DNA of 64,000 nucleotides from Aureispira anguillae. GTDB taxonomy: Bacteria; Bacteroidota; Bacteroidia; Chitinophagales; Saprospiraceae. Every line of letters starts with the position of its first letter. The stretch's first letter is position 1. Both the position numbers and the translations under genes were made by a program. Below the pieces are notes generated by a model. That model did no database searches. It had not been told where the DNA came from and saw nothing but the letters and a program-made list of their open reading frames with translations. The stretch is taken from the NCBI RefSeq assembly GCF_026000115.1, contig NZ_AP026867.1:1829501-1893500 (forward strand). Direction: 5' to 3'. Positions 46,922 through 63,288 of the stretch are shown here, one piece after another.

Positions 46922-47188
46922 AACGATAGAAACAGGTCGCTTTGATTTATAAGTGACTTGTTTGTTTTTGTAATGGATTGCTAAGATGGATTTTAGCTTT
47001 AGCCCATATGTGGTATTGACGTATATCTCTTGTTTGCCCGCAGTTTTATTTTTTTATGAATACTCTGCTTGTATAGGAATCTTTTAATAGGTCAATTTTG
47101 GGGATTAATTTCCATGCTTCATACATTTTGTTTTCCATTTTAACTAAATTACACAGGGGCTATTTTTCAACTGTACTCAGGGCGTTCA

Positions 47189-47256
47189 GTACAACAACAT
47201 GATAAAATTAGTGGGATCCCACGACCCCACTTAATTTTGATCGCTAATTGTTGTAC
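47189..47256. repeat. Nested inverted repeat 3' of the integrase gene
   Basis: Outer arms GTACAACAA (47189-47197) and TTGTTGTAC (47248-47256). Inner arms AAAATTAGTGGG (47204-47215) and CCCACTTAATTTT (47226-47238) carry one bulge. It lies between the convergent integrase gene and the 221-residue gene. It could be a convergent terminator without T-tracts or a recombination-related site. Confidence 0.55.
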
Positions 47257-47305
47257 AGTGCTTTTTGTTTTATATGGTTGATATTTTAGAAATTTATGAA
47301 AAAAA

Positions 47306-47971: not shown

Positions 47972-48027
47972 AATTGAAGGTTTTGTTCTTAATAAAAAAG
48001 TTTATAATTTAAATGCTGTGCAACGGC

Positions 48028-48205
48028 CTCTGTATATGCTTTGGCACAAAGCATGCGCCATACAATATAGCTTTTCGGGAAGCAAAATCGTAGGTTTTGC
48101 AAGTAATTTACTTTCTAGTACTGGCAAAATCTATGATTTTGCGCTGTGTCACATGCGTTCATTCTTATAACGCTGTTTCCGGGATGTGCCATTGCCATAT
48201 ACAGA
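48028..48205. repeat. MITE-like or cassette-site-like palindromic element
   Basis: Terminal inverted repeats of about 21 bases (48028-48048 and 48185-48205) share TCTGTATATG and TGGCACA, with one small indel between them. Inside are two further palindromes: GCAAAATC..GTTTTGC (48082-48100) and GCAAAATCTATGATTTTGC (48124-48142). The whole 178-bp unit can fold into a cruciform. It is intergenic, between two cargo genes. I could not match it to the attC consensus. Confidence 0.6.
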
Positions 48206-48221
48206 TTGCTTAGATGCAGTT

Positions 48222-50033
48222 CTATTTTTTACATAAAATATGGGGTTGAACATTATAATCTCGACATGAACTAATAAAACTATTGATAAGCCAAATTATT
48301 TGAATGTGGTGAGAATTTTTGGAAGTTCCATTTGCAATTTTTTCCAATTTGTCTTTTAGTTTGCTTTTACTAAAAAATGGTGTAGCTAATATTACTTTTC
48401 TATTTGAGTTTGGAGTTGAATTAACTTTGTTATAAGCTTTTTTTATATCACTCCAATTATTATTTGTTCGAATACGTTTTATTGATGTGCTTTCATAGTT
48501 ATTTTTCCATTTATTATCATATTTCTTTTTGTATTCAGAAAGTTCGGAGTTTAATCGGCCTAAATTTTTAAGAGCTTGTGAAACAACTTCATGGAAACTA
48601 CTAGCACCATATGTATCTTTTGAAGTATATTTTGAATGTATAAACGAAATAGTTGGTTGACCCAATTCTGTAGAAAAAATAATGTGATCAGCCCATTCAT
48701 TTCCCATATCATCACAAATAACTATTTCATCTTTTTTTATGAAGTTATTTTCAACAGCATAAAAAAGAGATTTATCTGGGAATTCCGTTATAGTATTGTC
48801 TCCAAATGGTTTTTCTTTTTCAGATACAACATCAGAAAAATCCATGCTGTCATCAAATACAGACATCATCCCCTCTATATTATTAAGCAACTGTTTGTCT
48901 TTGAATGTGTATCTAGAAACATACATGTAATTAGGGGTGTCAAAAACTACAGAAAAATTCTTTTGAGAATTAATAAATTTTGAGAGGGAGATAGTTTCGG
49001 TAGGTGTCTTGATTAAAATATTTTCACCAACTTTCGATTTAAATGTTATTTGTATTTTGTTGAGTTTTATTTCACCCAACCCATCTTGACCTTTTAATAT
49101 AATAGAGAATACATCAGATTTTGGTATCTTTCTTAAATTTAAAGGAGATCTAAATAGTTCAAAAAAATTATTAAGCTCTTTATCTTCCTTAATCTCAACC
49201 TCAGTCTGATTTTCTTTACTAATGAGCTTATAAGGAGAACTGGAATCTCTGAGATTTATATCTAATTCTTCAAGATGAAAAAGTATTGCAGTAGGAGAAC
49301 ATGTGGATTTAATTTGCTCTAATTTAATTGGAGCTGCAAAACTTTTAATGAATGAATTAATAGTAGCAGGTGTAATTGAATTTAATTCTTGTGTTAGTAA
49401 TAAACACCATTCTGCTAGGTCATCTAGACTAGATTTCTGAGAACGTAAAGCCAAACGAGATGTATTAGGGTTTATCAAATAAATTTCACCATCTACATTT
49501 AATCTAAAATTATTTGGAATCGACCTACTAGCAGAGTTTGTTGGTAAAATACCATCAATATTTCTACCTTCAAAAGACCTGTTTCTTATTTGCATATCTG
49601 AAACAGTCATGCTTTTCATTGATATTCGTTCATACTTAGCGTTAGGTTTTGCTTTTAAACTTGTGAATTTGCCATATTCTATGGGCTCAATGTAAAGTTG
49701 GATTTTTGATTGAAAGGAATCTATGTTTCTTTTAAATACAAATAAATAATTATTATACTCAATTAGTAATAAGAAAGCGTATTTCGTCTCTTTAACTTTA
49801 GTATTTAACAGGAAAGAAGGTTCTTGCTCAAGTGCAAAAGCTTTGCATGAATATATTAGAGTATTTCCATTTATATTAAGTGATGTTTTAACTTCATCTA
49901 TAATAAAATTACTTGTTTTATTTTTTGAACACTCAATAAAAATTTTTTCTACTGCTGTTTTAGAAAGGGGAGTCTTGATTTTAAAAATTTGAGCATTTTT
50001 AGGGAAATGGAAGCTAGAAATGGAAATTCTCAT
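48222..50033 (-). CDS. 603-residue cargo protein with nuclease-like C-terminal region
   Basis: The N-terminal 400 residues show no known domain. The segment about 438-495 reads VICDDMGNEWADHIIF, then TISFIHSKYTSK, then SFHEVVSQALKNLGRL. That spacing (acidic D441/D442/E446/D449, then H466-S-K468, then Q486) resembles PD-(D/E)xK-like nuclease cores seen in restriction- or helicase-linked defence proteins; the assignment is by eye. The last 100 residues are charged (NNYESTSIKRIRTNNNWSDIKKAYNK). It lies 130 bp downstream of a HEPN-type gene. Role in defence is inference. Confidence 0.6.
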   Translation of the reverse strand: MRISISSFHFPKNAQIFKIKTPLSKTAVEKIFIECSKNKTSNFIIDEVKTSLNINGNTLIYSCKAFALEQEPSFLLNTKVKETKYAFLLLIEYNNYLFVFKRNIDSFQSKIQLYIEPIEYGKFTSLKAKPNAKYERISMKSMTVSDMQIRNRSFEGRNIDGILPTNSASRSIPNNFRLNVDGEIYLINPNTSRLALRSQKSSLDDLAEWCLLLTQELNSITPATINSFIKSFAAPIKLEQIKSTCSPTAILFHLEELDINLRDSSSPYKLISKENQTEVEIKEDKELNNFFELFRSPLNLRKIPKSDVFSIILKGQDGLGEIKLNKIQITFKSKVGENILIKTPTETISLSKFINSQKNFSVVFDTPNYMYVSRYTFKDKQLLNNIEGMMSVFDDSMDFSDVVSEKEKPFGDNTITEFPDKSLFYAVENNFIKKDEIVICDDMGNEWADHIIFSTELGQPTISFIHSKYTSKDTYGASSFHEVVSQALKNLGRLNSELSEYKKKYDNKWKNNYESTSIKRIRTNNNWSDIKKAYNKVNSTPNSNRKVILATPFFSKSKLKDKLEKIANGTSKNSHHIQIIWLINSFISSCRDYNVQPHILCKK

Positions 50034-50163
50034 TAGAAGGATATTACAATTGGTTATAAATGTTTTGTATAAATTTAAGCTTTTTTACTTAAATCTAGCT
50101 GACACAGTTTTATGAACAGTCTCACAATGAACGCTGATGCATTGTTCTCAACAGTCTTCTTCT

Positions 50164-50982
50164 TTATCTCAACCAAGCTCCAACAGATGATTTAACTTCA
50201 AATAGTTTATTAATTCTATCAATATCTACTTGTTTTGTTCCGCTGATTAATCTGGTTTTATATTTTGTACCTATTCCCTCTGTTGCTTTTTTTACGACTG
50301 GGTGTAATTTTCTTGCTACTTCAAAAATAAAGTTTTTTTCAAATGCAATAGTTTGTCTCCCATAACTTTTGAGTTCATCAACTTTTTGTGCGTCTGGAAG
50401 AGTAATTGTTCCTCCTGTATGAACAACTGAATGCCTGAGTTGCCATAATACTTTTAATCTTCTACAATCATCATTACTAAATAATCTGTATCCTAAATTA
50501 AAGGCTGCGAAATAGCTATTTACTCTTTCCGGATTATGCCACCCTGAAAGACTATCACTCAAAACATTACCAATAGATGCAGTGCCAATATTTCTATATG
50601 CAGCCAATCTTCCAATATCAACTGAAACTATAGTTTCTTTTGATAGTTTGTTCAAGAATTTGCTTACATCAAAGTTATTCAAATGCACTGAATTATCGAA
50701 CATCAATCCAAAGAGAATTCGTTGGTATGTTTCAAAATGCCCCATTATCGAGGGTAAAATTGCAACAGTTAGATGTTGTAAACTATCCAAGCTATCACTG
50801 CTATAATTTCCGTCTTGATTTGTAGGGAATTTCCTTGCACATAAATCAATTGCACTTTTAGCTTCAATTGCATATTTTAAAAATGCAGTTGCAGGAGACA
50901 CTAAATAGTCATTTAGAGTTGTATGTTTATTTGTAGCAGTTGTTAAATACTCGTGGAAATCTTTTACTCGTCTTCCTGCCAT
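50164..50982 (-). CDS. HEPN-domain-like putative RNase
   Basis: 272 residues, mainly helical. The motif R183-H-S-V-V-H188 (LWQLRHSVVHTGG) is the RX4H active-site motif of HEPN RNases found in toxin-antitoxin, abortive infection and other defence loci. Such motifs are short, so this call rests also on the surrounding helical pattern (YFAAFNLGYRLFSNDDCRRLKVLWQLRHSVVH). A TAACTTTG -7 element is on the minus strand at 51026-51033. It is upstream of the 603-residue gene and could be co-expressed with it. Confidence 0.6.
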   Translation of the reverse strand: MAGRRVKDFHEYLTTATNKHTTLNDYLVSPATAFLKYAIEAKSAIDLCARKFPTNQDGNYSSDSLDSLQHLTVAILPSIMGHFETYQRILFGLMFDNSVHLNNFDVSKFLNKLSKETIVSVDIGRLAAYRNIGTASIGNVLSDSLSGWHNPERVNSYFAAFNLGYRLFSNDDCRRLKVLWQLRHSVVHTGGTITLPDAQKVDELKSYGRQTIAFEKNFIFEVARKLHPVVKKATEGIGTKYKTRLISGTKQVDIDRINKLFEVKSSVGAWLR

Positions 50983-51133
50983 TTGTTTTTCTTTTTTTGG
51001 GTTGTTGAGAATTTACCTGTATACACAAAGTTAGTTTTTTAGTATTTAAAACTTTAGATAAAGTTGGTCATAATACCTTGATATTTAAGGTCTATTTTTA
51101 ACCCCTGATTCGCATATATACAACTCTTCTTGT

Positions 51134-52033
51134 TTAAGAATCAAAATTTAAACTCATTTGATAAACTTTTTTAAATATTTTATTGAAATTATTCTTAAAG
51201 TCTTCTATGTCTTCTGATAATTCCATCACTGTTATTAATTTCAATAAATGTTTATCTAAGTGAGGTAATCCAACTTCTTGAGTTAGGTGCTGGTGATGTT
51301 TTCGTGGTCTTTGCCCTTTTAGGTTCGGTGGATTAATTTTTTTCAATTTATCAAGAATACCAGGAGGCAATTGTTCATATACATATTTATTGGTAAACGT
51401 TCCTAAACAACCAGGACGTTTTAAGGAGAAAGGATCATATTTCCAATTATATAGCCTAAAAACTTCTTGATAAAATTTTCTAGGAAACCTGCTTTGCCAT
51501 TTTAGAAAATCTTCTAGGATATATTTTGATAAAATCTTTTGAAGTTCGTTCTTTTCTCTATCATATTGATAACCTGTTGCTTCGTCAATTAAAGCTGTAA
51601 TACCAACCTTTGCTAAAGAACGAATCAGAATGTTTGCTTGTACTACCATTTTATCTTGAGAGCTTACAGTTGCGTTGGCATCTTTAGCTTTTAAGTAAAG
51701 TTCACAGACCAGTGGAATTAGCTCTGCGTCATACCCCACAGCATGGGTGCCATTAGTATGATAATAGTGAATAGGATTACATTTTTCTTTTACTTCTTCA
51801 GTAACAAAAGGAAGTAGGTTTTTTGCACCGATAATTGATGGAAGTCCTTTTTGCCTTTTCTCTCCTTTTCTTGGGCGTTTAAATGCTGCAAATAAGCCAG
51901 TTTGCGATATAATTCTTTTCTTACCTTCTAATACAGCACAAGGAATCTTTACAAAGCCATATTCTTCGCTTCCAATGTTTAGGTACCCCCGGTGAGTCGC
52001 ATGATAAATTTCCATGGATTTTTCTTCTTTCAT
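51134..52033 (-). CDS. P63C-domain protein (phage/mobile-element type)
   Basis: 299 residues. The C-terminal half has the P63C pattern: LQKILSKYILEDFLKWQSRFPRKFYQEVFRLYNW, then GTFTNKYVYEQLPPGILDKLKKINP and RPRKHHQHLTQEVGLPHLDKHL. The N-terminal half contains FAAFKRPRKGEKRQKGLPSI. P63C proteins are found in phages and integrated elements; their function is unknown. It lies alone, 151 bp after the HEPN-type gene start region and 222 bp before the methyltransferase stop. Confidence 0.82.
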   Translation of the reverse strand: MKEEKSMEIYHATHRGYLNIGSEEYGFVKIPCAVLEGKKRIISQTGLFAAFKRPRKGEKRQKGLPSIIGAKNLLPFVTEEVKEKCNPIHYYHTNGTHAVGYDAELIPLVCELYLKAKDANATVSSQDKMVVQANILIRSLAKVGITALIDEATGYQYDREKNELQKILSKYILEDFLKWQSRFPRKFYQEVFRLYNWKYDPFSLKRPGCLGTFTNKYVYEQLPPGILDKLKKINPPNLKGQRPRKHHQHLTQEVGLPHLDKHLLKLITVMELSEDIEDFKNNFNKIFKKVYQMSLNFDS

Positions 52034-52255
52034 GATTTTATTTTTAATGGTCTTATGAAGCGAATGTAGTCACATGACTATTTAAAAACAAATTTTTTAA
52101 GAAATATATTAAAAAAAAACATAAAATAGATTGTACTCAGAGGATGAATGTAGTATCAAATAGATAAAAACTGTTTAGTGGAAAAAGTATATTATACTTA
52201 ATAAAAGGTAATTAAGGAAAAGAAGATAGACTCTAAACCTACCTTCTTTTCTTTC

Positions 52256-53482
52256 TTATTTCTCAATTTTATTCAAAAAATCAATAGCACTAAGTCCAAT
52301 AGCATAAGCAAGGTTTACAGGAACAGCATTTCCAATTTGTTTATATTGTTGACCTTTGGCTCCCTGAAATACCCATTCATCAGGAAAAGTTTGTATTCGA
52401 GCACTTTCTCGAATAGTTAAAGGTCTTGTTTCTGTCGGATGGCACCGCTCGGTTTGTTTCATAGCAGGGGAGCAAACAATAGTAAGAGCAGGGGTCTTTA
52501 GAGATAACCTTCTTGCTAAACCAGTTTTTCCTCCACCCAAATAATAACTTCCTCCCATATATTCCTTCTGTAAATCATCGGGCAGGTCCTTCCAATATCC
52601 ACCTTCTGGAACTTTTTCCATAATTTCTTTTTTCCTTTGAGGGTAAGAAACCCCAAGGCTTTCAGGGACATTTGTTTTGTATAGAATTCCTTTTTTAAAA
52701 GCATCATTTACTGTTAAAACTTTAGGGTATTTTTCTGGAAATTTAAACAGATGAGCTTTATCTGCAAAATCATTTCGTATTCCAACCAAAATGAGCCGTT
52801 CTCTTTTTTGAGGTACTTTATAATACATTGCTTTCAATACTTTAGGCTCAATTAAAGTGTATCCTAAATCTTTTATTGCTTGCTTAATGACACTTAAAGT
52901 ATTTCCTTTGTCATGATTTAATAAACCTTTGACATTCTCACCTATGAAAATTTTTGGCTTTACTTCATTAATGCATCTCGCAAATTCAAAAAATAAAGTT
53001 CCTCTTGTATCTTCAAACCCTAGTTGTTTACCAGCATGAGAAAATGCTTGACAGGGGAAACCTCCTGTAATTATGTCAATTTTATTATTATAAGATTTGA
53101 AATCAACTTTTTCAATATCACCTTCTATTACTTCCCATTTCGGTCGATTATGTCGCAAAGTAGCACAGGCTTCTTTATTATTTTCATTCAATAAAATATG
53201 CTTGAATCCAGCCTTTTCCATGCCAATTGCCATACCTCCTGCTCCTGCAAACAACTCAATAGATGTATATTTTCTTTTTGGCTTAATTTTAGTAAAGTCA
53301 GTCCAGTTTGTATTAAAAACTTCTTGTGCGATATTAAAATTTAGTAAACTTTCCTTAGTGTATAATTTTTCATCTTTATTGATTTTAAAAGGAATTAGTT
53401 TACCATTTCTAGCCCATAAATCTAATCTATGTAATGGGGTATCAAGAAGATTACTTACTTCAAATTGGTTATACAATTTCAT
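52256..53482 (-). CDS. C5 cytosine DNA methyltransferase with N-terminal helix-turn-helix (GGNCC type by context)
   Basis: 408 residues. The N-terminus (about 1-60: YNQFEVSNLLDTPLHRLDLWARNGKLIPF) looks like a MerR-type winged helix, followed by motif I SIELFAGAGGMAIGMEKAGF (about 74-93), motif IV GGFPCQAFSHAG with catalytic C144, motif VI GENVKGLL (E182) and motif VIII QKRERLILVGIR. It protects host DNA from the adjacent Eco47II-type endonuclease; the GGNCC specificity is inferred from that partner. The extra helix-turn-helix may repress the system's own promoter, since no separate controller gene of the classic kind is present. Confidence 0.92.
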   Translation of the reverse strand: MKLYNQFEVSNLLDTPLHRLDLWARNGKLIPFKINKDEKLYTKESLLNFNIAQEVFNTNWTDFTKIKPKRKYTSIELFAGAGGMAIGMEKAGFKHILLNENNKEACATLRHNRPKWEVIEGDIEKVDFKSYNNKIDIITGGFPCQAFSHAGKQLGFEDTRGTLFFEFARCINEVKPKIFIGENVKGLLNHDKGNTLSVIKQAIKDLGYTLIEPKVLKAMYYKVPQKRERLILVGIRNDFADKAHLFKFPEKYPKVLTVNDAFKKGILYKTNVPESLGVSYPQRKKEIMEKVPEGGYWKDLPDDLQKEYMGGSYYLGGGKTGLARRLSLKTPALTIVCSPAMKQTERCHPTETRPLTIRESARIQTFPDEWVFQGAKGQQYKQIGNAVPVNLAYAIGLSAIDFLNKIEK

Positions 53483-53549
53483 TAAAGTTTATTATGTTAT
53501 TTATGTGTTTTGGTGCTCAAAGTAAATTTTATTCTTAATGGGAAAAAGA

Positions 53550-54299
53550 TTATTTAGTATCTAAATTAAAATCATTAAATCCTTCGTAATTTTTAAAGGA
53601 TAATAAATAGATACTAGTTAACAAATCTGGTGATAATTTGTTTAATTCATCAAAAACAGTATTTGCTTTTTCAGCATTTTTTAATTTACTTGTGGCATCT
53701 TTTATAACAGTAGGGAGTGCTTTACATAATTTTTGAAAAGCATTTTTGTCTCCTGTTACTAATTCGTAAAACTTATCTATAGAAACTCTTCTGATTTGAT
53801 GGTTTGCACTCTGTTTTTGTCCATCTAGGGTTACCACCCAAGGGATATTTTGACTTTTTTTAGCGATAACTTCTACTAATAAACATGTTGCGTTAGGATT
53901 TTTGATAATGCTATTTTGCATTCTCATATATGTTTTTGCACTAGATGAAGAATTCATTGTATTGTGTTTATTTTTCATTTCTACAAAAATTGCTTCCCGA
54001 GTGTTTTCTATATCATATCCTTGTTGAGGAACATGCCAATCAGAAGAAAAATATTTGAAAATATTTTGATGAAAATACCCAATAAGGTTTGAGTTAGATT
54101 TATCCAATTGTCTTAAAACCTCATTTTCGATGGTTTCTTCGTATGATTGGTTATATACGATAGAATCAAATGTGAGCTTAATTGGATCTATTAGGTTTTT
54201 GTTAAATTTTCTTAGGTCCATACTGAAACTGTACTTTTTAACAGTATCGTAAACATGGTTAAGTAATTCTTTATCACTGATGAATGTTAGGTTGTACAT
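53550..54299 (-). CDS. Eco47II-family type II restriction endonuclease
   Basis: 249 residues, full length. The family pattern is strong: FNKNLIDPIKLTFDS, then RQLDKSNSNLIGYFHQNIFKY, then IFVEMKNKHNTMNSSSS, then CLLVEVIAKKSQNIPW and RRVSIDKFYELVTGDKNAFQKL. The PD-(D/E)xK catalytic set is D96, E107 and K109. Eco47II cuts GGNCC. It is encoded upstream of the methyltransferase (67 bp) in the same direction, an arrangement in which methyltransferase expression must keep ahead of the nuclease. Confidence 0.92.
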   Translation of the reverse strand: MYNLTFISDKELLNHVYDTVKKYSFSMDLRKFNKNLIDPIKLTFDSIVYNQSYEETIENEVLRQLDKSNSNLIGYFHQNIFKYFSSDWHVPQQGYDIENTREAIFVEMKNKHNTMNSSSSAKTYMRMQNSIIKNPNATCLLVEVIAKKSQNIPWVVTLDGQKQSANHQIRRVSIDKFYELVTGDKNAFQKLCKALPTVIKDATSKLKNAEKANTVFDELNKLSPDLLTSIYLLSFKNYEGFNDFNLDTK

Positions 54300-54336
54300 A
54301 TCACTATTGTATCTTTATTTCCAATTTGGACATAAA

Positions 54337-54365
54337 GGGCACCAAGTAAAATATACTTGGTGCCC
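54337..54365 (-). terminator. Hairpin terminator between regulator and endonuclease genes
   Basis: A 12-bp perfect stem GGGCACCAAGTA / TACTTGGTGCCC with a 5-base loop, about 35 bp after the regulator stop on the minus strand. The T-tract is short on that strand (TTTATG). Confidence 0.72.
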
Positions 54366-54398
54366 TCATTCTTTGTTTATTATAATTGTGCTTTATTT

Positions 54399-54821
54399 TT
54401 ACTTCTCTTCTAAGCTTTTTTCTAAAAAAGCAATGAGCTTATCTTTGTCTTTTAGCCGCCCTTCCCTGTCTTTTAGCCATTCCTCCTTGTCTTTTAGTCG
54501 TTCCTCTTTATCTTCTAATGATTTTTCTAAAAACTCAATTTTATTCTTTAGTTGTTCAATTTCTGTAGAAATTATACTATTACTAGGTTCACTCTGAGAT
54601 TTTGAAATTAACATTTCTCCTTGACCGTTTAAAATCCAGTCAAAACTAATATCGGGACTATGTTTTTTAATAGCCTTAACCATTCTCATTGATAGGTTAT
54701 TACTACCATTTAGGTAACTTGTATAACTTTGAGGAGTAGTGTAGCCTAGGACTTTAGCAAAACTTGTCTTGTTTAGATTTAGATAAAATCTAATCTTTTC
54801 AATTCGTTCTCTCTCAGACAT
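54399..54821 (-). CDS. Xre-type regulator with coiled-coil tail
   Basis: 140 residues. The helix-turn-helix (about 10-60: IRFYLNLNKTSFAKVLGYTTPQSYTSYLNGSNNLSMRMVKAIKK) is followed by WILNGQGEM, as in phage-type repressors. From about 85 the protein is a pure heptad coiled coil (EQLKNKIEFLEKSLEDKEE) made of near-identical units encoded by a 21-bp DNA repeat. It is divergent from the backbone genes that start at 55442 and is separated from the restriction genes by a terminator, so it more likely controls the element than the nuclease. Confidence 0.82.
   Translation of the reverse strand: MSERERIEKIRFYLNLNKTSFAKVLGYTTPQSYTSYLNGSNNLSMRMVKAIKKHSPDISFDWILNGQGEMLISKSQSEPSNSIISTEIEQLKNKIEFLEKSLEDKEERLKDKEEWLKDREGRLKDKDKLIAFLEKSLEEK
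54447..54530. repeat. 21-bp tandem repeat encoding coiled-coil heptads
   Basis: Four units, 54447-54467, 54468-54488, 54489-54509 and a diverged 54510-54530. The first three begin GTCTTTTAG. Each unit encodes seven residues (one heptad), so gain or loss keeps the frame and changes coil length. Confidence 0.8.
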
Positions 54822-55033
54822 TTATCTTATTTCAGTTAAAAACCAAATAAAAAATTGACTCGAAAAGGTCTTTTAATTTTGTTTTTCCCAATTTTTTAAT
54901 CTAGCTTTGTTATATCAAAGGGGAATAGGTTATGAAGTTAAAACCCCTTTAACAAGAAAAATATTAACAATAAAAACAGCCCGACAATAACAAATAGAGC
55001 AGCAAATCAACAAGACATATTAAATTAAATAAC

Positions 55034-55092
55034 ATGTAGACAAATGTAGACCATGTAGACCAATGTAGACGGGCATGTAAACAAATGTAGAC
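55034..55092. repeat. Iteron cluster, six copies of ATGTAGAC
   Basis: ATGTAGAC begins at 55034, 55044, 55053, 55063, 55075 (variant ATGTAAAC) and 55085. Spacing is 9-12 bp, about one helical turn, so all copies face the same side of DNA. This is typical of iterons in plasmid origins or of tandem operators. Confidence 0.75.
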
Positions 55093-55285
55093 AAAATGTT
55101 AAGAAAAGGCAAAGGAAAAGAAACAAAATTCAATCAGGGAATGGGGATTGAATAGGCTTGGTCGTGCCATGTGGCATTGTTTATTTCTATGGGGATAGAA
55201 ACAGCAACTAGGGGGCGACCTCTGGCGATCAACTGTTAAGTGCAGGCACATCAAAAGGGTGTGCTGGTCAAATTTTGAGTGTTTC

Positions 55286-55353
55286 TCTAGGATCTAGTTC
55301 CTTAGCAGGAAGGACATTGCTAAAATGAGAGGGTTCGACTCCCTTTACTAGAG
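55286..55353 (+). other. tRNA-like leader element 1
   Basis: TCTAGGA (55286-55292) pairs with TACTAGA (55346-55352) with one mismatch. A D-arm-like hairpin GTTC/GGAC (55297-55315) has GG in its loop. A T-arm GAGGG-TTCGACT-CCCTT (55329-55345) matches the tRNA TTCRANN loop. Only 13 bases remain where an anticodon arm and variable loop should be, so it is not a normal tRNA. It lies about 88 bp upstream of the gene at 55442. Confidence 0.55.
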
Positions 55354-55441
55354 CAAACCAATTACAAATAAACAACGGTATACAGCGACTTACTATGCTA
55401 AGTGGTGAGGCGAAGCTATGCCCCAAATCAAGTAAATTAAT

Positions 55442-55735
55442 ATGAATACAGAGACAGACAACAACAGTAGTGCTGAGTCAGATGCTCAAGCGGCTAATTT
55501 TCATGAGCATGTAAAAAATACCTTGTCGGTATCGGCTTATAAGAATTTGCCAAAGGCTTTGGGCTATGGTAGACGAAAAACAACGATGTTATTATTAGAT
55601 CCCAGTAAAATGGAACTAGAAACCATGGAGAAAATGGCGGAGTTCTTAGGGGGCAATCTGCGTACGATGATTGACCGTTATCAAATGGGGTATGATGTAT
55701 TGAGCATCAGAGCATATAAAAAATTAATGAGCTAA
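55442..55735 (+). CDS. Small putative DNA-binding protein, backbone gene
   Basis: 97 residues. The first 20 are disordered (TETDNNSSAESDAQ). The middle (KNTLSVSAYKNLPKALGYGRRKTTMLLLDPSKMELETMEKMAEFLG) reads like a helix-turn-helix of the Xre kind. Not recognised further. First in a plus-strand run with the next gene, 18 bp away. Confidence 0.6.
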   Translation: MNTETDNNSSAESDAQAANFHEHVKNTLSVSAYKNLPKALGYGRRKTTMLLLDPSKMELETMEKMAEFLGGNLRTMIDRYQMGYDVLSIRAYKKLMS

Positions 55736-55753
55736 ACTAAAAAAAGTAGGCGC

Positions 55754-56065
55754 ATGGATGAAACACTTAAGGCCCATTTGATGGACCTGATAGATCGACA
55801 AAATGAAATAATAATTCAGCAGGGAGCGAAACTGGATGCATTAGAAGAGGAGATCGAAAAAGGAGAGATCTATAAAAATAATTTTGTAACCACAAGGGAG
55901 GTGTCCCGAATTTTAGGATTAAAGCCAAGAACAATAAGGAAGTACAACTATGACGGGCTTTTGACAGGAAAGAAGCGAAAAAAAGAAGGAATGCTTTATT
56001 TCCCGTTAAAACAGGTCATGGAATACCGAAGGGAAAACTTCAAACATTGGGCTTTTTTTGAATGA
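55754..56065 (+). CDS. Helix-turn-helix (excisionase/MerR-like) protein
   Basis: 103 residues. A coiled N-terminus (about 10-35) is followed by a winged helix (FVTTREVSRILGLKPRTIRKYNYDGLLTGKKRKKEGMLYFPLKQVMEYRR), the pattern of the Bacteroidota mobile-element HTH family, often linked to excision or rep-gene regulation. Confidence 0.8.
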   Translation: MDETLKAHLMDLIDRQNEIIIQQGAKLDALEEEIEKGEIYKNNFVTTREVSRILGLKPRTIRKYNYDGLLTGKKRKKEGMLYFPLKQVMEYRRENFKHWAFFE

Positions 56066-56083
56066 TTAAAATTAAAAAAGACT

Positions 56084-56332
56084 ATGAACAGAATAACAAA
56101 ACGGCTCTTCTTTGGAGGAACGCTCTTGCTGGTCGTCACTTTTATACTGAGCTATGAAGTTAGCGCTTCGTTTACCAATAGCATCAAGGAAGAAGTGCGA
56201 GCGGTCAGGGTAGAAATTCAAACGATCAAGGCTCAAAACAAAGCCATCAAAGCAGAACTCAAAGCGATTGACCAGAGAATATTTAATCGCAGAATTTCAA
56301 ATCGTATAGCGCAGCGTTTCCCACCTCAATAA
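56084..56332 (+). CDS. Small membrane-anchored coiled-coil protein
   Basis: 82 residues. One membrane helix (about 8-28: LFFGGTLLLVVTFILSYEV) is followed by a coiled coil (about 35-65: EEVRAVRVEIQTIKAQNKAIKAELKAIDQRI). Function unknown. It is 18 bp after the helix-turn-helix gene. Confidence 0.68.
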   Translation: MNRITKRLFFGGTLLLVVTFILSYEVSASFTNSIKEEVRAVRVEIQTIKAQNKAIKAELKAIDQRIFNRRISNRIAQRFPPQ

Positions 56333-56367
56333 TCATCTTTTAAAATCATAAAACAAAATGCTAGACA

Positions 56368-56598
56368 ATGGATAAATCCATAAAAATAGTAGAAGGCACG
56401 ATTAATATAGAAGCTTATATAGCCTGCCCACATTGTGATACTTATATCGATCTATTTGAAATAGACCGCTTAAACGATGATATGCAATTGAGTAAGGTTA
56501 TCGCTAATGAAGATAACGAAGAGCAAGACAATTACAAAGAAATGATTACTTGCCCAGACTGTTATAAAAAGATTCAGATAGAAGGCTTGGCTTACTAA
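56368..56598 (+). CDS. Small zinc-ribbon-like protein
   Basis: 76 residues with two CxxC pairs (ACPHCDTYIDL near 18-28 and TCPDCYKKIQI near 60-70), 41-42 residues apart, enough for a zinc ribbon. Acidic middle (NEDNEEQDNYKE). Function unknown. Confidence 0.68.
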   Translation: MDKSIKIVEGTINIEAYIACPHCDTYIDLFEIDRLNDDMQLSKVIANEDNEEQDNYKEMITCPDCYKKIQIEGLAY

Positions 56599-56654
56599 GC
56601 AAAATATCAAAACTAAATAGTTAAATCACCTTTTAAAACGATCATAAAACAAAA

Positions 56655-57440
56655 ATGGAACAATACGAATTTTATATCCTTGTGGTCATCAATACGCCCA
56701 AAGAAGAAAACGCTTTGTGTTTTGCAACAGAAGCCGAAGTTAATGGGGTATTACCTGCGGATACGGATCTAAACAAAGCTTATGTCACCAAGGATTATTA
56801 CGACAACGACAAAGAGCTAATCTACCTTAAAAGATCAGCAGTAGACGCTTTAGCGATTGGTGTGGAAGGAGGCAGAAAGATCGTGCCCAACAATAAGGAA
56901 AACCGCAAGGAATTGGGCTTGAAGTACAAAAAAGGCTTCCTAAAAAAGAGAAAAGTAAAAGAGCCTAAAGAAGCCGCAACTCAAAAGCCACGCTTTGCAG
57001 AATGGCTGGAGGTGTTAAAGATGGGGTTGAATTTATTGTTGACCATGAAGGAAGAAAGTAAGGCAAAAAAGCCAAGCTCCTCCGCTGCTCCCTCTAGGAA
57101 TTTAACCGTTTTAGCACAGAAAATTCATGCCCTAAATCAAGTCAAGGGATTTTGGAACAAAGAGCGCAATATCGGGGAACTGTTAATGGGAGTTACCGCA
57201 GAGCTGAGCGGAGCCATGGAGGCTTACCAAGAAAGTACGCCTGCCAATTGGGATTTGTACGATGCAGGTATTTATAGCCCCAAAGAAGCTTTTGAACACT
57301 ACATTCAACATACCTTCGAGGATAAAATTGCTGGTGCCATTATTCGGCTCTTAGATTTAGCGGCAGGAATGAACATAGATATTGAGCGCCATGTTCGGGT
57401 TAAGTTGGCTTACCATTATCTGAAAGAAAATAAAGATTAG
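56655..57440 (+). CDS. Unknown backbone protein
   Basis: 261 residues. The N-terminal 100 residues form a compact domain (EQYEFYILVVINTPKEENALCFATEAEVNG), then a basic linker (GFLKKRKVKEPKEAATQKPRF) and a helical C-terminus (about 150-261) ending LDLAAGMNIDIERHVRVKLAYHYLKENKD. The last part resembles nucleotide pyrophosphohydrolase (MazG)-like helices, EKIAGAIIRLLDLA being suggestive, but without the ExxE motifs I can confirm. The stop codon overlaps the possible acceptor arm of leader element 2. Confidence 0.55.
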   Translation: MEQYEFYILVVINTPKEENALCFATEAEVNGVLPADTDLNKAYVTKDYYDNDKELIYLKRSAVDALAIGVEGGRKIVPNNKENRKELGLKYKKGFLKKRKVKEPKEAATQKPRFAEWLEVLKMGLNLLLTMKEESKAKKPSSSAAPSRNLTVLAQKIHALNQVKGFWNKERNIGELLMGVTAELSGAMEAYQESTPANWDLYDAGIYSPKEAFEHYIQHTFEDKIAGAIIRLLDLAAGMNIDIERHVRVKLAYHYLKENKD

Positions 57441-57626
57441 GGGTTTATAATTGTGAAGAGCTGTGTTTTGCTTTGGCAGAATGCAGCTCCATTTTAAAAC
57501 GAACTGGATTGGATGCAAAAAGGGTTCGATTCCCTTTCTAGTCACGAGGAAGCAAACAGTTGTTTGCAAGTTACGGCGACTATATGCCGATTTAAAAAAG
57601 AGGGGTTTGGGAGCAACCCCCTCTTT
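57435..57626 (+). other. tRNA-like leader element 2 and structured leader of the replication gene
   Basis: A perfect T-arm AAGGG-TTCGATT-CCCTT (57520-57536) is followed by TCTAGTC (57537-57543), which can pair with GATTAGG at 57435-57441 with two wobbles. Between them is a strong GAGCTG / CAGCTC stem. Downstream are GCAAACA/TGTTTGC (57552-57567), CGGC/GCCG near 57574-57589, and a terminator-like stem AAAGAGGGGTT / AACCCCCTCTTT (57597-57626). The gene at 57671 follows. Confidence 0.55.
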
Positions 57627-57670
57627 AACATACTATCTAATCTATAAAAACACACAAGGTTTACAATAAA

Positions 57671-59206
57671 ATGCAAACTCAATCTAACATACACCCTGAG
57701 GTTAAAAATAGTTCCCTGAGTCCTAGCTTTTATGAAATGATTGATAAAAAGGCGACTCAGAAGGCAGGAAAAGATATGATGGCGGCTTATCAAGCCAAGC
57801 GCAAAAAGGCAGGAAAACGGGGCGGTGTAACGCCGTATACCTTTGATCTGTTTCATGCGATCATTCGCAGCGTTGCCCCTACCATGGAGAATTTAAAGAA
57901 GCATCAAGATGGTTTGTACGAGGAATGTCGTATGCATGGAGAGTATTGCTGTTTTACGACCATTCCTAGCCTGATCACGCTCTTAAATGACACAGCGAAG
58001 CATCGAGTACTATCACCCAATAAAAAGACCGTCTACAACCAAATTAAGAAGCTCATGGACATTGGCATCATTACCGAAAAGGTCAACCATGTACATACAG
58101 GTCTAAGAAATCCTTATCCAGACGAACAAAGCCCCAAGGGACGAGGAAAAATCCAACTGTGGATAAGCCCTCAGGTCTTGTGTATAAAGCCCTGTTACGA
58201 GGGTTCTGGGGCTTCTGATACCCCCTCTTTTTTTGACGTTAAAGGGGAAACTTTACCGCAGTACGAACAAAGTTCTTTACTATATAAAGATAAAGAACTA
58301 GAATCAATCATTAATAGTCCTTTGGTTGTGGATAAAGCGGCTTTGGCTGTCGCCAAGCTTAAACCATCCAATATTCAAGATGGAGGACAAGGAAGCAAGT
58401 TTACCTCCTCCAATTCTCCAACTATTGCGGTGCTTAATGCTCAGAAATCGGGTGAAGGACAAGGAAGCAAGTCTATTTCCTCTGATTCTCCAAAGATTAC
58501 GCCCCGAAAAGCGTCTAAAAAGGAGCATGTTTGCGCAAAATTATGGGATTTGATGCGTTACAACCTCTATCAAAACCAAGTGTACAACGAACAAACCAAC
58601 ACGGATTGCAAATTGATGCTTGGCGAGCTGTTGGATCTAGCAGCGCAGCATGTAACGGCTTATCGACAAGCTAAAATCCAGTCGTTCCGTGAAAATCCTG
58701 CTTATTTGGCCAGCAGGCAACAAACTAAGTTGCTTAAGAACTTTGCAGCAGGACTCCCCCATGAGGAGCGCTCTGCCATTGAGATCGTTTCTCATGCCAT
58801 CATCAAACAACAAAAACACGCCGACAAATACGGCTATCCACTGTATTATCCAGTCGATTATCTCAGCTCAACGGCTGCGGTCAAGGCTCTGAATTATTCC
58901 ATGGACGATTGGGATCGAATACAAGCCAATTATTTTGATAAAAACAAAACGGCTAAAGCCTATTTCCAGCAAGTGCAATGGATCAACAAGCGTTACAGCA
59001 ATGCCATTGAGCAAATGGAGCAGGAAGGTGCAAAGGTAGTCTACAAAGACATTGCTCAGCATTACAACCACTGGTATCAAAGCTTGAAAGATAATCCTTA
59101 TTTGAACGAAGATAAAATGAAAGCCTTAGGCGATTTATTCATACAAAAATTTAAACCACTGCTCAACGATGAACATCTCCAACGCCAAAGAAATGGCAAC
59201 TACTAA
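57671..59206 (+). CDS. Probable replication initiator or primase-like protein of the element
   Basis: 511 residues. A basic N-terminus is followed by a winged-helix-like region (about 60-145: TPYTFDLFHAIIRSVAP, then NKKTVYNQIKKLMDIGIITEKVN). A low-complexity middle (about 230-285) carries two related segments with GQGSK, encoded by a DNA direct repeat (58388-58403 and 58457-58472 share GGACAAGGAAGCAAGT). The C-terminal part (about 290-511) is helical. The domain order fits mobile-element replication initiators, but no catalytic motif is visible. It follows the structured leader directly. Confidence 0.6.
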   Translation: MQTQSNIHPEVKNSSLSPSFYEMIDKKATQKAGKDMMAAYQAKRKKAGKRGGVTPYTFDLFHAIIRSVAPTMENLKKHQDGLYEECRMHGEYCCFTTIPSLITLLNDTAKHRVLSPNKKTVYNQIKKLMDIGIITEKVNHVHTGLRNPYPDEQSPKGRGKIQLWISPQVLCIKPCYEGSGASDTPSFFDVKGETLPQYEQSSLLYKDKELESIINSPLVVDKAALAVAKLKPSNIQDGGQGSKFTSSNSPTIAVLNAQKSGEGQGSKSISSDSPKITPRKASKKEHVCAKLWDLMRYNLYQNQVYNEQTNTDCKLMLGELLDLAAQHVTAYRQAKIQSFRENPAYLASRQQTKLLKNFAAGLPHEERSAIEIVSHAIIKQQKHADKYGYPLYYPVDYLSSTAAVKALNYSMDDWDRIQANYFDKNKTAKAYFQQVQWINKRYSNAIEQMEQEGAKVVYKDIAQHYNHWYQSLKDNPYLNEDKMKALGDLFIQKFKPLLNDEHLQRQRNGNY

Positions 59207-59645
59207 AAAGAGAAAATACAAAGCGCCCTCGGTTGCTTATTTGCAGATAAAATTTAAAAACAACAGCAAGCCCAATGGTTTTAAAATAAGCGACTTTGGC
59301 AAGGATTTAAAGAAGATTGAACGGTATTTGGCAAGCGTAGAAGGAAAATGGTCTTGGGCGATTTTACGGCAAGTTAAAACAGGGAATATTTATCATTATT
59401 ACCACCCCAAAACAGGGCTACAGCGATTGGATCTAAAGGACTACAAAAAACAGCTTACTTCCTACTCCTTGTACATCATTCCTACCCAACAATACAAAAA
59501 CCGCCATGGCAGCCAAAAGGGCATCAGTAAACGGGTTTATGATCTTAATGAGGTGACAAAATACTGGAATAAAGATGTTTTACGGATTGATATTTACCAG
59601 GAGAAAAAATTGATTAACCGCTACCAAGGAAGATTTTTGATGTAA
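59169..59645 (+). CDS. Unknown basic backbone protein
   Basis: 158 residues. It overlaps the replication gene by 38 bp if it starts at 59169; ATG 59193 is equally possible. Basic N-terminus (TTKKRKYKAP) and aromatic-rich body (GNIYHYYHPKTGLQRLDLKDYKKQL). Not recognised. The stop codon and the next start overlap (TAATG at 59643-59647), so translation is coupled. Confidence 0.65.
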   Translation: MNISNAKEMATTKKRKYKAPSVAYLQIKFKNNSKPNGFKISDFGKDLKKIERYLASVEGKWSWAILRQVKTGNIYHYYHPKTGLQRLDLKDYKKQLTSYSLYIIPTQQYKNRHGSQKGISKRVYDLNEVTKYWNKDVLRIDIYQEKKLINRYQGRFLM

Positions 59646-60052
59646 TGGATTATTATCGACAACATTCCATCCTAATTCAAGATAAGATCCCCTTACAATT
59701 ACAGCGCTCCCATTGGCATAAATTCCATTACTGGTTAGGTCAATATCTAATTGAAACCAAAGCGCAAAGCACGATTGAAAAATTAATACAAGCTACGCTC
59801 TTACAAGCGTTCATCAAAATTTCAAAGCTGATTCAACGCCTAGAACGAAGTGGCAAACCGATGAAAAGCAAAATAAGCCTACAACTTAGCCCCTCTGAAA
59901 AATACGGTTTAGAGCACAGCATCCAAGCGGTAGCCGAAGAAGTAGACAACGATTTTTTTGAACCCTTTTATTTAGCCTATTTACAACCCATTTTAGACCA
60001 ATTTCACCAACACGACATCAATCAACCCAATCAAGGATTGAGCTTATTATAA
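59645..60052 (+). CDS. Unknown helical backbone protein
   Basis: 135 residues, all helical by pattern (IEKLIQATLLQAFIKISKLIQRLERSGKPM). Start ATG 59645 is fixed by the TAATG overlap. No family known. Followed 22 bp later by a membrane protein gene. Confidence 0.62.
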   Translation: MDYYRQHSILIQDKIPLQLQRSHWHKFHYWLGQYLIETKAQSTIEKLIQATLLQAFIKISKLIQRLERSGKPMKSKISLQLSPSEKYGLEHSIQAVAEEVDNDFFEPFYLAYLQPILDQFHQHDINQPNQGLSLL

Positions 60053-60074
60053 CCGCATTTAAAAGACAATAGAA

Positions 60075-60344
60075 ATGACCAACAAACAATTTATAAAGAT
60101 GGGCCATTCGGCATTCCTCATCTGGATCATAACGCTCTTAGGCATCTATTTAATTTACCAGTATGGAATAATTGTAATTTTTTGCTTGGGGCTGCTTTTT
60201 TGCTGCCTTTGGGGGCTGCTCTATTCCTTTGTAACAGTGACTTATTTTATCAATTTCCTACATTTTAAAAACTGGGTAGAATCAACGCCCTTAGACATTT
60301 ATTTACTACTTGACAATAAAGAATCTGACTCCAAACACGATTAA
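60075..60344 (+). CDS. Small membrane protein
   Basis: 89 residues with two hydrophobic helices (about 12-30 and 33-57: AFLIWIITLLGIYLIYQYGIIVIFCLGLLFCCLWGLL). Function unknown. The next gene begins directly after it, at 60346. Confidence 0.65.
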   Translation: MTNKQFIKMGHSAFLIWIITLLGIYLIYQYGIIVIFCLGLLFCCLWGLLYSFVTVTYFINFLHFKNWVESTPLDIYLLLDNKESDSKHD

Positions 60345-60345
60345 A

Positions 60346-60645
60346 ATGTACTACAAAAAACAAATTAACACCTTAGAAGAAGCAGAACAACTCGCACTCT
60401 TTTTAAAAATGTCTATTCGACAATTGCTAAGAAAAAAGAGGATGTACGATGGTTTATTAGCTAAAAGGATCAGAAGGAAAACTGGATGGGCAGCAGTTTG
60501 GCCAGTTGGTTTAAACCGAATTAAGCTACTAAACGATCCTCGATGTAAATCCATTCTGCTAAACCTATTTTGTTTAAAGGAAGCCATTCGAATCAAACGC
60601 TTTATCCAAAAATTAAACAAGATTAGAAGCGCATTTACCAATTAA
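60346..60645 (+). CDS. Small basic helical protein
   Basis: 99 residues from the ATG at 60346; an in-frame TTG at 60310 would overlap the membrane protein gene. Basic C-terminus (FCLKEAIRIKRFIQKLNKIRSAFTN). One part (TLEEAEQLALFLKMSIRQLLRKKRMYDGL) is reminiscent of small helix-turn-helix proteins. Not recognised. A stem at 60650-60680 follows. Confidence 0.58.
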   Translation: MYYKKQINTLEEAEQLALFLKMSIRQLLRKKRMYDGLLAKRIRRKTGWAAVWPVGLNRIKLLNDPRCKSILLNLFCLKEAIRIKRFIQKLNKIRSAFTN

Positions 60646-60649
60646 AAAA

Positions 60650-60680
60650 AGGAGCTGCTTAGGGATAATAAGCCGCTCCT
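60650..60680 (+). terminator. Hairpin between backbone genes
   Basis: Stem AGGAGCTGCTTA (60650-60661) against TAAGCCGCTCCT (60669-60680), one mismatch, 7-base loop. No T-tract follows, so it may be a processing or attenuation hairpin. Confidence 0.5.
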
Positions 60681-60706
60681 ATTCAAAAGAATTAAAAGAC
60701 AAAGAT

Positions 60707-61846
60707 ATGACAACTTTCACAAAAAATCCCTACGCAGAAATGCGAAAAAAGATCAACCGCATTGTATTTCGGGATAGACTAGACAAAACCTTAGACGGAA
60801 AATTTAAACACAAGCGTTTTTCTGAGCGGTTTGCCTTGGCAAATACCGCCTTTATCGGCATGAGCGGCATTGCTCAACTCGCAAGCATGGGAACTGCTTT
60901 TGTGATGCTCTCCTACTTATTTGAAAGCTCGCCAATGCTAATTCGGGTAATCTTTTCCGCTGCTTTGGTTAGCATGATTGAAGTGGTTAAACGAGAAGCC
61001 ACCAACGATGTAATGAAGAGTTTAAACCAATACAAAGAGGTTGAAAAATTCCCTACCTTTTTAGCCTTGTTGATGGTGGGCACCAGCATTTACATTTCCA
61101 TTGAAGGTGCCAAGATCTTACCCAGTCTTTTTATTGCTGATGCCATGGAGCTGTTCCCTGAAGAAAAAGAAGCAGAAGCAGTCAAGGCAACCTACGATAC
61201 GAAAATTGAAACCTTGACCAAAGAACGAGAAAATTATATCCAAACTCGCTTGTATCATGGTAGAATTCGCACCGAAGATTCCGAAGAGGTGATGCGCATT
61301 AATGAAAGGATTGCGCTTACAGAACATAAAAAAGATTCTGCGCTTCAAGTATTAGACAAAAAAAATGAAGCAGCTCAAACAGCTACCCTATTGCAAAATA
61401 AAGCGGCAAAAGCGGCGGTTGAAAAAGAGCGAATGGAGTTAGGAGAACAGCTCGTTATTGCAGCCATTGGTTTTGAGGTTTTGTTTCTCTTTTCGCTCTG
61501 CTTTTCTTGGTGGTATTATACCGAATGTGAAAAGGAAAGACAAAAGGCGAAGGAGAACAGCTCCCCTTCTAGTGATCCTGAAAATATGCCGAAAGTGGAC
61601 AAGGAAATTCCTGCTGAAGAAGCGAAGGTTTTAGAGGTGGAAACGATTGGTGTTAGAGCAACCAAGAAAGTTAGTTTTAAGGATTACGAGCAGGAAGAAA
61701 ACTTGACCGAAACCGAAAAGGTTAAGAAGGATTATACTCGAATTTGTCCTGAATGTAATACGCCTTTTATTCATAAAAACCACAATCATACTTTTTGTAA
61801 TCGGGAATGTTATTTGGCTGCTAGGAAAAAAAATAAAATCAAATAA
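60707..61846 (+). CDS. Membrane protein with C-terminal zinc-finger-like motif
   Basis: 379 residues. Membrane helices lie near 47-70, 77-95, 115-135 and 250-272. A long charged coiled-coil loop (about 155-245: EAVKATYDTKIETLTKERENYIQTRL) lies between the third and fourth. The last 45 residues hold CPECNTPF and HTFCNRECY, a CxxC...CxxxC treble-clef-like motif, after an acidic tail. This is an unusual combination. Possible role in membrane attachment of plasmid or element DNA; not known. Confidence 0.68.
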   Translation: MTTFTKNPYAEMRKKINRIVFRDRLDKTLDGKFKHKRFSERFALANTAFIGMSGIAQLASMGTAFVMLSYLFESSPMLIRVIFSAALVSMIEVVKREATNDVMKSLNQYKEVEKFPTFLALLMVGTSIYISIEGAKILPSLFIADAMELFPEEKEAEAVKATYDTKIETLTKERENYIQTRLYHGRIRTEDSEEVMRINERIALTEHKKDSALQVLDKKNEAAQTATLLQNKAAKAAVEKERMELGEQLVIAAIGFEVLFLFSLCFSWWYYTECEKERQKAKENSSPSSDPENMPKVDKEIPAEEAKVLEVETIGVRATKKVSFKDYEQEENLTETEKVKKDYTRICPECNTPFIHKNHNHTFCNRECYLAARKKNKIK

Positions 61847-61865
61847 ACTGCCTTTTCACGCTCGA

Positions 61866-61968
61866 ACTTCCGCAGTAACACTCCGTTACTTCCGAAGTAA
61901 CAGCACACCTTCAAACACCGATATATAAAGGATTACTTCCGAAGTAACGCTTGTTACTTCGGAAGTAA
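61866..61968 (+). repeat. Palindromic repeat leader before the gene at 61996
   Basis: ACTTCCGAAGTAAC occurs at 61888-61901 and 61935-61948, with a variant ACTTCCGCAGTAAC at 61866-61879 and an inverted copy at 61953-61968. TTACTTCCGAAGTAAC (61933-61948) pairs perfectly over 16 bp with 61953-61968, loop GCTT. The gene starts 27 bp later. Confidence 0.8.
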
Positions 61969-61995
61969 AACAACAAAAAAAACAATTCTAAAATA

Positions 61996-62388
61996 ATGAT
62001 AGAGATAGAAGAATTACCAGATGTTATAACCGTGAGTGAACTCATCGCTCAAGTAATTGGAGAAACTGTTTTTATGATCTCAGGCGAAAGACCAGGAGAC
62101 AAGGAATATGAGTATTTGCAAAACTTGGATTTAAATAAAATGAGACAAGAAGCTGAATTGTATTTCTTGAAATTTACAGACGAACCCAAAAAACAAACAA
62201 GGCTTATTTACACTAAAAAACATCGTCTAGAAGACAAACTAGAGCTTTTTCTCAGTAACTATCCTTTGTTGGATGAATATGCTATTATCCAAAATGTCAA
62301 AAACAACCTCGAAGCTTTAGACCAACTTTATGAAACTGTTAAAAAGCAAAAAGAATCGTTAAAACGACCTGCTTTACTGCCAAAGTAA
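61996..62388 (+). CDS. Unknown backbone protein
   Basis: 130 residues, acidic N-terminus (IEIEELPDVITVSELIAQV) and basic helical C-terminus (YETVKKQKESLKRPALLPK). No family seen. It is preceded by a 16-bp hairpin closely matching, in position and form, the one before the methyltransferase gene at 62513. Confidence 0.6.
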   Translation: MIEIEELPDVITVSELIAQVIGETVFMISGERPGDKEYEYLQNLDLNKMRQEAELYFLKFTDEPKKQTRLIYTKKHRLEDKLELFLSNYPLLDEYAIIQNVKNNLEALDQLYETVKKQKESLKRPALLPK

Positions 62389-62449
62389 AACGGGCAGATT
62401 TTCGCTACTTTGTAAATTCTTTAAAACGCCCGAAACCCCTATAAATAAA

Positions 62450-62489
62450 GGAAGTACTTCCAAAGTACGTTGGCAGTACTTTGGAAGTA
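62450..62489 (+). repeat. Palindromic leader before the adenine methyltransferase gene
   Basis: GGAAGTACTTCC (62450-62461) is a perfect palindrome. TACTTCCAAAGTAC (62455-62468) pairs over 14 bp with 62476-62489, loop GTTGGCA. The methyltransferase start is 23 bp later. Related in sequence to the hairpin at 61933-61968 with compensating base changes. Confidence 0.8.
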
Positions 62490-62512
62490 AAAATGAATAA
62501 CAACAGTAAAAA

Positions 62513-63283: not shown

Positions 63284-63288
63284 TTGTA

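Follow-up and report, generated by a model that had tools for sequence, protein, structure and literature searches.

The question raised by this locus is what a tRNA-like element that lacks an anticodon arm is doing in the leader of a mobile-element gene. The window, i.e., the whole stretch of 64,000 nucleotides analysed here (C1:1829501-1893500 of a 7.8-Mb genome), carries a tyrosine recombinase gene after tRNA-Leu(UAA) at 45457-45542. Because the last 13 bases of this tRNA recur at C1:1910119 and C1:1946938, we read the region as two tandem elements of 35.1 and 36.8 kb and the start of a third at C1:1946938. The first element spans 45530-64000 of the window, continues to C1:1910118 and holds both tRNA-like sites, A and B (Table 1). 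Site A lies in the first leader, the approximately 600 bases from the HTH repressor-like gene to 55442, and site B in a second leader 2 kb on, before the rep-like gene. The original prediction of a tRNA-like regulatory RNA without an anticodon arm, present as two related copies in the leaders of one mobile element, is supported by conservation and covariation, both of which were found in related elements (22 sites and the core alignments described below).

Table 1. Positions of the features of the first tandem element that are discussed in the text (window coordinates).
Feature	Positions	Strand	Basis or remark
Attachment core, 13 bp, which marks the element's left end within the 3' end of tRNA-Leu(UAA)	45530-45542	+	Identical 13 bases at C1:1910119 and C1:1946938
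HTH repressor-like gene	54399-54821	-	Divergent from the first rightward gene (55442)
ATGTAGAC-type repeats 5' of the first leader, candidate operator/promoter region	55033-55092	+	Family of 3 copies; similar repeats precede the cores of relatives
Hairpin ATTCAATC...GATTGAAT, 5' side of the leader RNA	55128-55153	+	Minimum-energy fold of 55120-55269, z -3.14
Core RNA, four-way junction	55157-55233	+	Fold z -3.54; homologues with covariation
Hairpin P5, CAAAAGG loop region	55246-55264	+	By eye; stem letters differ among the window, L003 and L079
Site A, tRNA-like element, best register	55293-55356	+	78.6 bits with model R2 (built partly from site A); covariation
Site A acceptor, 7 bp	55293-55299 (TCTAGTT) with 55346-55352	+	6/7 paired, innermost T-T
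Site A D-like hairpin CCTT-AGCAGG-AAGG	55300-55313	+	GG in loop
Site A linker	55314-55328	+	No anticodon arm
Site A T-arm GAGGG-TTCGACT-CCCTT	55329-55345	+	Abuts the acceptor
Site A G73	55353	+	Followed by CAA
GGCG...TGCC hairpin GGCGAAGCTATGCC, shortly 5' of the first gene	55409-55422	+	Kept in relatives' leaders
97-aa gene directly 3' of site A, first rightward gene	55442-55735	+	Alignment of 6 elements; 31-40% identical to the copy in the window
Site B, shortened tRNA-like element	57502-57544	+	Acceptor AACTGGA 57502-57508 / TCTAGTC 57537-57543; T-arm 57520-57536
Hairpin GCAAACAGTTGTTTGC 3' of site B	57552-57567	+	Fold; counterparts of different sequence in relatives
CGGCGACTATATGCCG hairpin, the best-conserved word in rep leaders	57574-57589	+	Comparison of rep leaders
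Strong hairpin 5' of rep	57598-57627	+	Fold; followed in elem6, L065 and L070 by a T run, intrinsic-terminator-like
Rep-like gene, 511 aa, named by position only	57671-59206	+	Homologues found

The tRNA-like element is indeed present on the + strand, but not in the register first given to it: the TCTAG at 55286 is missing at the same place in the relatives L003, L004, L019 and L025, and the register in Table 1 was fixed by alignment with relatives. ARAGORN calls no tRNA at site A and no tmRNA, and the Rfam tRNA model (RF00005) has no match there at E values up to 10, while it scores site B at 20.6 bits, under the cut-off of 29. Compared with that family, the mimics have the 7-bp acceptor on a 5-bp T-stem with T-loop and, at both window sites, lack the 29-bit score and the anticodon arm. 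In isolation, both window sites fold no better than shuffles (z of -0.63 for site A and -0.36 for site B), so that the case rests on comparison.

The comparison covers 22 distinct sites, 11 of B type and 11 of A type, the first mimic of L030 being counted among the latter, with registers set by hand, the letters of every site confirmed in its locus, each acceptor taken as the best or homologous partner, and with identical or near-identical repeats as well as the T-loop-less site A of L044 and site B of L071 omitted. Standard pairs fill 142 of 154 acceptor positions and 107 of 110 T-stem positions, the latter figure being partly by construction since the sites were picked for having a T-arm. 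The non-standard cells are 12 in the acceptors (8 A-C, 4 other) and 3 in the T-stems, and even the weakest acceptor (L233) has five of its seven pairs. There are 17 acceptor duplexes, with three or four Watson-Crick types at each of positions 1-6, and 21 sites have a T-loop of TTCGA followed by two letters that vary, the remaining one having TTCAATT. The distance from acceptor start to T-stem ranges from 18 to 59 nt, and by eye a clear D-like stem of 4 or 5 bp with a loop ending in GG is seen in eight sites (site A of the window, L005, L052, L054 and L079; site B of L079, L080 and L233). An anticodon arm with a 7-nt loop, absent at both window sites, was seen by eye among the relatives' sites only at site A of L005. 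An alignment of seven A sites has 97.6% of cells paired and 3 of 12 pairs changed on both sides, with 6 of 500 shuffles as high, which is modest alone. It is clear from the aligned sequences that the stack of a 7-bp acceptor and a 5-bp T-stem with a TTCRANY T-loop, the anticodon arm being absent in most copies, is conserved, and that the mimics stand 5' of the rep-like gene as well as of the first rightward gene, beside other conserved hairpins. Since relatives keep this shape while the letters change, the tRNA top-half shape in the leaders is probably functional.

Two related copies had been said to argue against chance, and a direct count bears this out. A 5-bp T-arm with a TTCRANY loop and an acceptor partner of at least 6 of 7 pairs within 60 nt should turn up 0.067 times per strand by chance, as judged from 60 dinucleotide shuffles of the 71.9 kb of the two tandem elements, and was found five times on the + strand and never on the - strand. 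Four of the five matches are sites A and B of both tandem elements; the fifth, at C1:1912668 (83168 in the window frame), is a lone T-arm-like hairpin downstream of the second integrase, with the loop TTCAATC. Because 40% of chance T-arms in the shuffles had such a partner, little weight can be put on the acceptor of any one site.

The second T-arm-like element, pointed out at 57520-57536, proved to belong to site B of the rep-like gene leader. A T-arm is present in 16 of 17 leaders with a rep homologue downstream, with a plain hairpin instead in L071; these leaders come from G000 (6), G003 (7), G008 (2), G228 (1) and G002 (1) and include several near-identical copies. The rep-leader sequence of G008, a genome of the same genus, is shared with Aureispira sp. 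CCB-QB1, which makes it probable that the window host is an Aureispira. Site B was not found in L068 and L074, where a core is present and a rep match is absent in the stretch examined, and the fold of site B in L080 consists only of acceptor, D-arm and T-arm (z -1.46). After the T-arm, most rep leaders have a hairpin and the word CGGCGAC..ATATGCCG, L080 and L233 being divergent there, and the GGCG...TGCC hairpin is common to both window leaders (55409-55422 and 57574-57589). The words once thought to be shared after both sites, GCAAAC and the GCGACT/TATGC match, are not kept at site A in relatives. The copies at C1:1587k and C1:3610k have a leader approximately 360 bases longer, holding a 66-aa reading frame, and a longer version of site B; since AGGGTTCGATT flanks the extra stretch on both sides in the C1:1587k copy, the site B form of the window looks like a deletion between AGGGTTCGATT repeats.

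The core model matches 2 of 298 genomes drawn from the order and the site-A model 3 of 298, including G236 (E 0.0099). Relatives of rep occur in 5 of 396 genomes and at 3 loci in a genome-contig collection, with none in viral contigs or phage records, and the Rep protein identity between elements is as low as 25-28%. The rep-leader word occurs in 25 of 398 genomes of the family; 23 of its matches, in 21 genomes, were taken as chance as no T-arm lies within 160 nt, and among 60 stretches with the word in viral contigs the single T-arm-like hairpin was also judged to be chance. Neither the 97-aa gene nor the rep-like gene gave a Pfam match (for the latter, none above cut-off).

As for the nature of the element, its products include two endolysin-like proteins and one resembling an ATPase, along with many small frames of membrane-protein type, and no tail or terminase family match was obtained for any of 10 element proteins scanned with PHROGs; it is possibly a tailless, membrane-containing provirus. 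For a coat-like protein at L056:8540-9265 the predicted structure (mean pLDDT 32.5) was too poor to be used. Between integrase and HTH gene lies a cargo region (47306-54299) with a candidate defence protein PDC-S71 (48222-50033), a cytosine methyltransferase (52256-53482) and, at 53550-54299, a product that matches a type II restriction enzyme. Between two genes, at 61864-61969, the palindrome TTACTTCCGAAGTAAC is repeated. The ATGTNNAC-type repeats at 55033-55092 have similar words at the att junction C1:1946910-1946938, and the two are perhaps shared binding sites of the integrase or a regulator.

The original prediction missed a core RNA upstream of site A that is better conserved than site A itself. 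It is a four-way junction with P1 of 7 bp, P2 of 4 bp, P3 with a GGGG loop, and P4 of 7 bp with a GCGA tetraloop. We found 20 copies in four of ten chosen genomes (G000 6, G003 8, G008 5, G228 1), and none in the other six same-genus genomes searched, by DNA as well as covariance-model searches. Over 14 distinct sequences, 97.0% of cells are paired and 8 of 24 pairs are changed on both sides, values that none of 500 shuffles reaches, in an alignment that was fitted to the model and so leans to the structure (slid versions reach at most 50.9%); the count of further pair types is not above shuffles (42 of 500). When seven sequences are aligned without structure, 95.2% of cells are paired with 6 of 24 two-sided pairs, and 2 of 500 shuffles do as well. 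The coding strand of the 14 distinct sequences has 32 G-U cells and 3 A-C cells, an excess that points to an RNA of the + strand; the same signal in the 22 mimics is weaker, with 19 G-U vs. 8 A-C.

Behind these 20 cores, site A with a T-arm follows in 12, a GNRA form in one (L044) and none in seven (L035, L043, L045-L048 and L055, of which L043 and L045-L048 are nearly identical). Given these seven cores, the GNRA-capped one and the one rep leader of 17 without a T-loop, the mimic is dispensable in some lineages. In L044 and L018 (G008:C3) a GCAA-capped hairpin stands exactly at the place that the T-arm has in site A.

The account that we tentatively prefer, while holding it slightly likelier to be wrong than right, is that RNase P and/or RNase Z cut the early transcripts at the mimics and so release a leader RNA. 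The element would make two early transcripts whose leaders carry tRNA top-half mimics; host RNase P would cut on the 5' side of a mimic and/or RNase Z on its 3' side, and the cut would both free the upstream four-way junction as a small stable RNA and give the downstream mRNA a defined 5' end. The freed RNA may then act back on the early transcripts, like the RNase P-processed C4 RNA of P1/P7. Passages of a review of RNase P report that hairpins of acceptor stem, T-stem and T-loop alone are cleaved at the canonical site, and list the phage C4 RNA as a substrate (PMC11143913). These nucleases fit better than synthetases because what is kept is the stacked length and the T-loop, whereas the acceptor letters and position 73 vary freely; the synthetase-recognised RNA of the original prediction is unlikely for the same reason. 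We count in favor of processing the C that follows position 73 in 18 of the 22 sites. We count against it that CCA occurs in only two sites (GCCA at site A of L005 and L019; the window sites have GCAA and ACGA), that the mimic is absent or altered in some lineages, as the 7 of 20 cores without site A indicate, and that in 5 of 20 copies the core RNA already stops at an intrinsic terminator short of site A. The position of the leader beside the divergent HTH gene resembles that of an immunity region, while a search by eye for antisense pairing between the leaders gave none that held in all copies and established no conserved target.

An extension of this processing account, which we regard as doubtful, takes the core to have once been a tRNA-like cloverleaf and to be released as an RNA of the immunity type, with the anticodon-less mimics as processing marks on the mRNAs of a provirus-like element and the T-arm replaceable by a GNRA hairpin. 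The unconstrained minimum-energy fold of the L079 leader is a complete cloverleaf (z -2.19; 5 of 200 shuffles as good) with a 7-bp acceptor, a 5-bp arm whose 7-nt loop ends in GG, a long arm with the tip CATGGGGATG and a 5-bp T-arm with the loop TTCGACT; it reaches 17.3 bits as tRNA-Sec (E 1.6, sub-threshold). The window core follows the same plan: its junctions have no spare bases, its P3 ends in the tip CTATGGGGATAG, and the GCGA-capped P4 occupies the T-arm position. It is because of this shared plan that we consider a remodelled cloverleaf at all. In this doubtful scheme P1 would correspond to the acceptor, P2 to the D-arm, P3 with its kept GGGG loop to the anticodon arm, and P4 to the T-arm position. 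Since the core model gives the L079 cloverleaf a weak score (8.1 bits, the best of 13; E 0.043 over 501 bases with filters off), a shared origin rests on the plan and the loop letters. L079 (1-2870, Aureispira CCB-QB1) is also a locus where an element of the same family starts right after 18 tRNA genes in a run; the window genome has a dense tRNA run near C1:5289235-5292841.

It is unlikely, in our judgement, that the mimic is instead a landing site for a host protein of the tRNA elbow (such as PNPase or the T-arm enzymes TruB/TrmA) that alters leader stability or translation without cleavage. In its favor, D-like stems with GG-ending loops are seen in 8 of 22 sites, although a clear D-like arm is missing in the other 14 and the acceptor stack would be superfluous for a T-arm enzyme alone. 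A search of the host's own genome for a Ro/TROVE protein gave no match (the control matched 1 of 14), which also speaks against this reading. A bacterial Y RNA would need a Ro protein, and we rejected that class for want of a TROVE protein, though the acceptor, D and T arms without an anticodon arm fit (the D arm being clear in those same eight sites). The precedent for an elbow protein is YrlA, whose tRNA-like domain, according to passages of PMC8394870, resembles D, T and acceptor arms and binds PNPase, and which is modified by DusA and TruB. Like the mimics it has acceptor, D- and T-like arms and lacks the anticodon arm (same passages); it differs in that it exists as a free RNA and has a basal stem that binds Rsr/Ro, whereas the mimics lie in mRNA leaders.

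It seems to us quite unlikely that the junction, the mimic and the GGCG...TGCC hairpin decide whether downstream terminators are read through, by acting on RNA polymerase or on folding. In 5 of 20 copies a T-run terminator does separate the core from site A (one found by scan, L060 6983-7007), in some relatives one follows site B, and by eye a loop ACGTCCC after the D-like part of site A can pair with the 5' strand of P1 (GGACGT/GGGCGT). This loop is found in L030, L044, L049, L052 and L053, only in copies with a terminator between core and site A. Against attenuation or antitermination, most copies have no terminator at A, the B hairpin of the window has no good T run on the + strand (a terminator scan of that strand does not list the hairpin at 57598-57627), and the need for a tRNA shape would be left unexplained.

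We hold it very unlikely that the hairpins act as single-stranded DNA in an origin, transfer or recombination signal: a mobile element with many hairpins and the repeats at 55033-55092 would suit such a role, but the G-U and A-C counts favor an RNA of the + strand, less clearly for the mimics than for the core, and the hairpins always stand just 5' of genes, in the same direction.

A decayed host tRNA left behind by integration is highly improbable, this reading being largely refuted by the covariation seen in the alignments. The element does integrate in tRNA-Leu, host tRNA-Lys(UUU) starts with GAACTGG, the same seven letters as 57501-57507 at site B, and both the 20.6 bits of that site and the 20.5 bits of site A at C1:3607782-3607848 are sub-threshold tRNA-model scores, the latter the best below the cut-off in a genome scan in which 150 of 634 candidates were scored (66 over the cut-off, 3 below). 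The tRNA fossil of the original prediction is nevertheless not supported: the real attachment core lies in tRNA-Leu(UAA), whose arms are unlike sites A and B. None of 60 distinct tRNA sequences called from the tRNA loci examined starts with TCTAG, the acceptor letters swap by compensating pairs, and no tRNA gene is among the 10 and 12 matches that blastn of the two leaders gives in their own genome. Compensating changes keep the stems, at fixed leader places, in elements down to 25-28% Rep identity.

Among known RNA families, Rfam gives none over threshold in the window leaders, only true tRNAs in the loci of eight relatives, and seven low-score matches in the window leader at E values up to 10. 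None of the latter is a C4 match, in a library which we take to include the C4 model. The C4 RNA (P1/P7) and CI RNA (P4) resemble the core in being structured RNAs encoded in the leader of a prophage-like element, and the window leader has an early-operon position beside a repressor gene, where both the early timing and the repressor role are inferred. CI RNA is itself processed by RNase P. Excerpts of the literature describe C4 as cut out of a longer phage transcript by RNase P (PMC5320573) and CI as processed from the leader transcript that it terminates (PMC4825925). C4 differs in that the passages on it in PMC5320573 and PMC11143913 do not describe a T-arm mimic, and antisense pairing is putative here. 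The tRNA-like domain of tmRNA, too, consists of acceptor and T-arm without an anticodon arm, whereas no tag reading frame or pseudoknot body was recognised here and the ARAGORN tmRNA search was negative. The model hairpins of the RNase P review (PMC11143913, in part) have the same acceptor/T-stem/T-loop helix but are synthetic, whereas here the shape is kept by evolution in natural leaders. The thrS operator and T-box leaders share a tRNA resemblance (passages of PMC8394870); they mimic or bind the anticodon side, which is missing in the window mimics. In the literature on phages and Bacteroidetes we found no published description of such tRNA-like leaders.

The 76-nt junction would be an additional RNA family, matching nothing in Rfam. 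Natural leader RNAs reduced to the tRNA top half, with compensating changes along the acceptor stem, would mean that a mobile element borrows the host tRNA machinery for its own gene control, and the natural variants (full cloverleaf, D-arm plus T-arm, T-arm alone, GNRA in place of the T-loop, or none) offer a ready-made set on which to test the requirements of RNase P and RNase Z.
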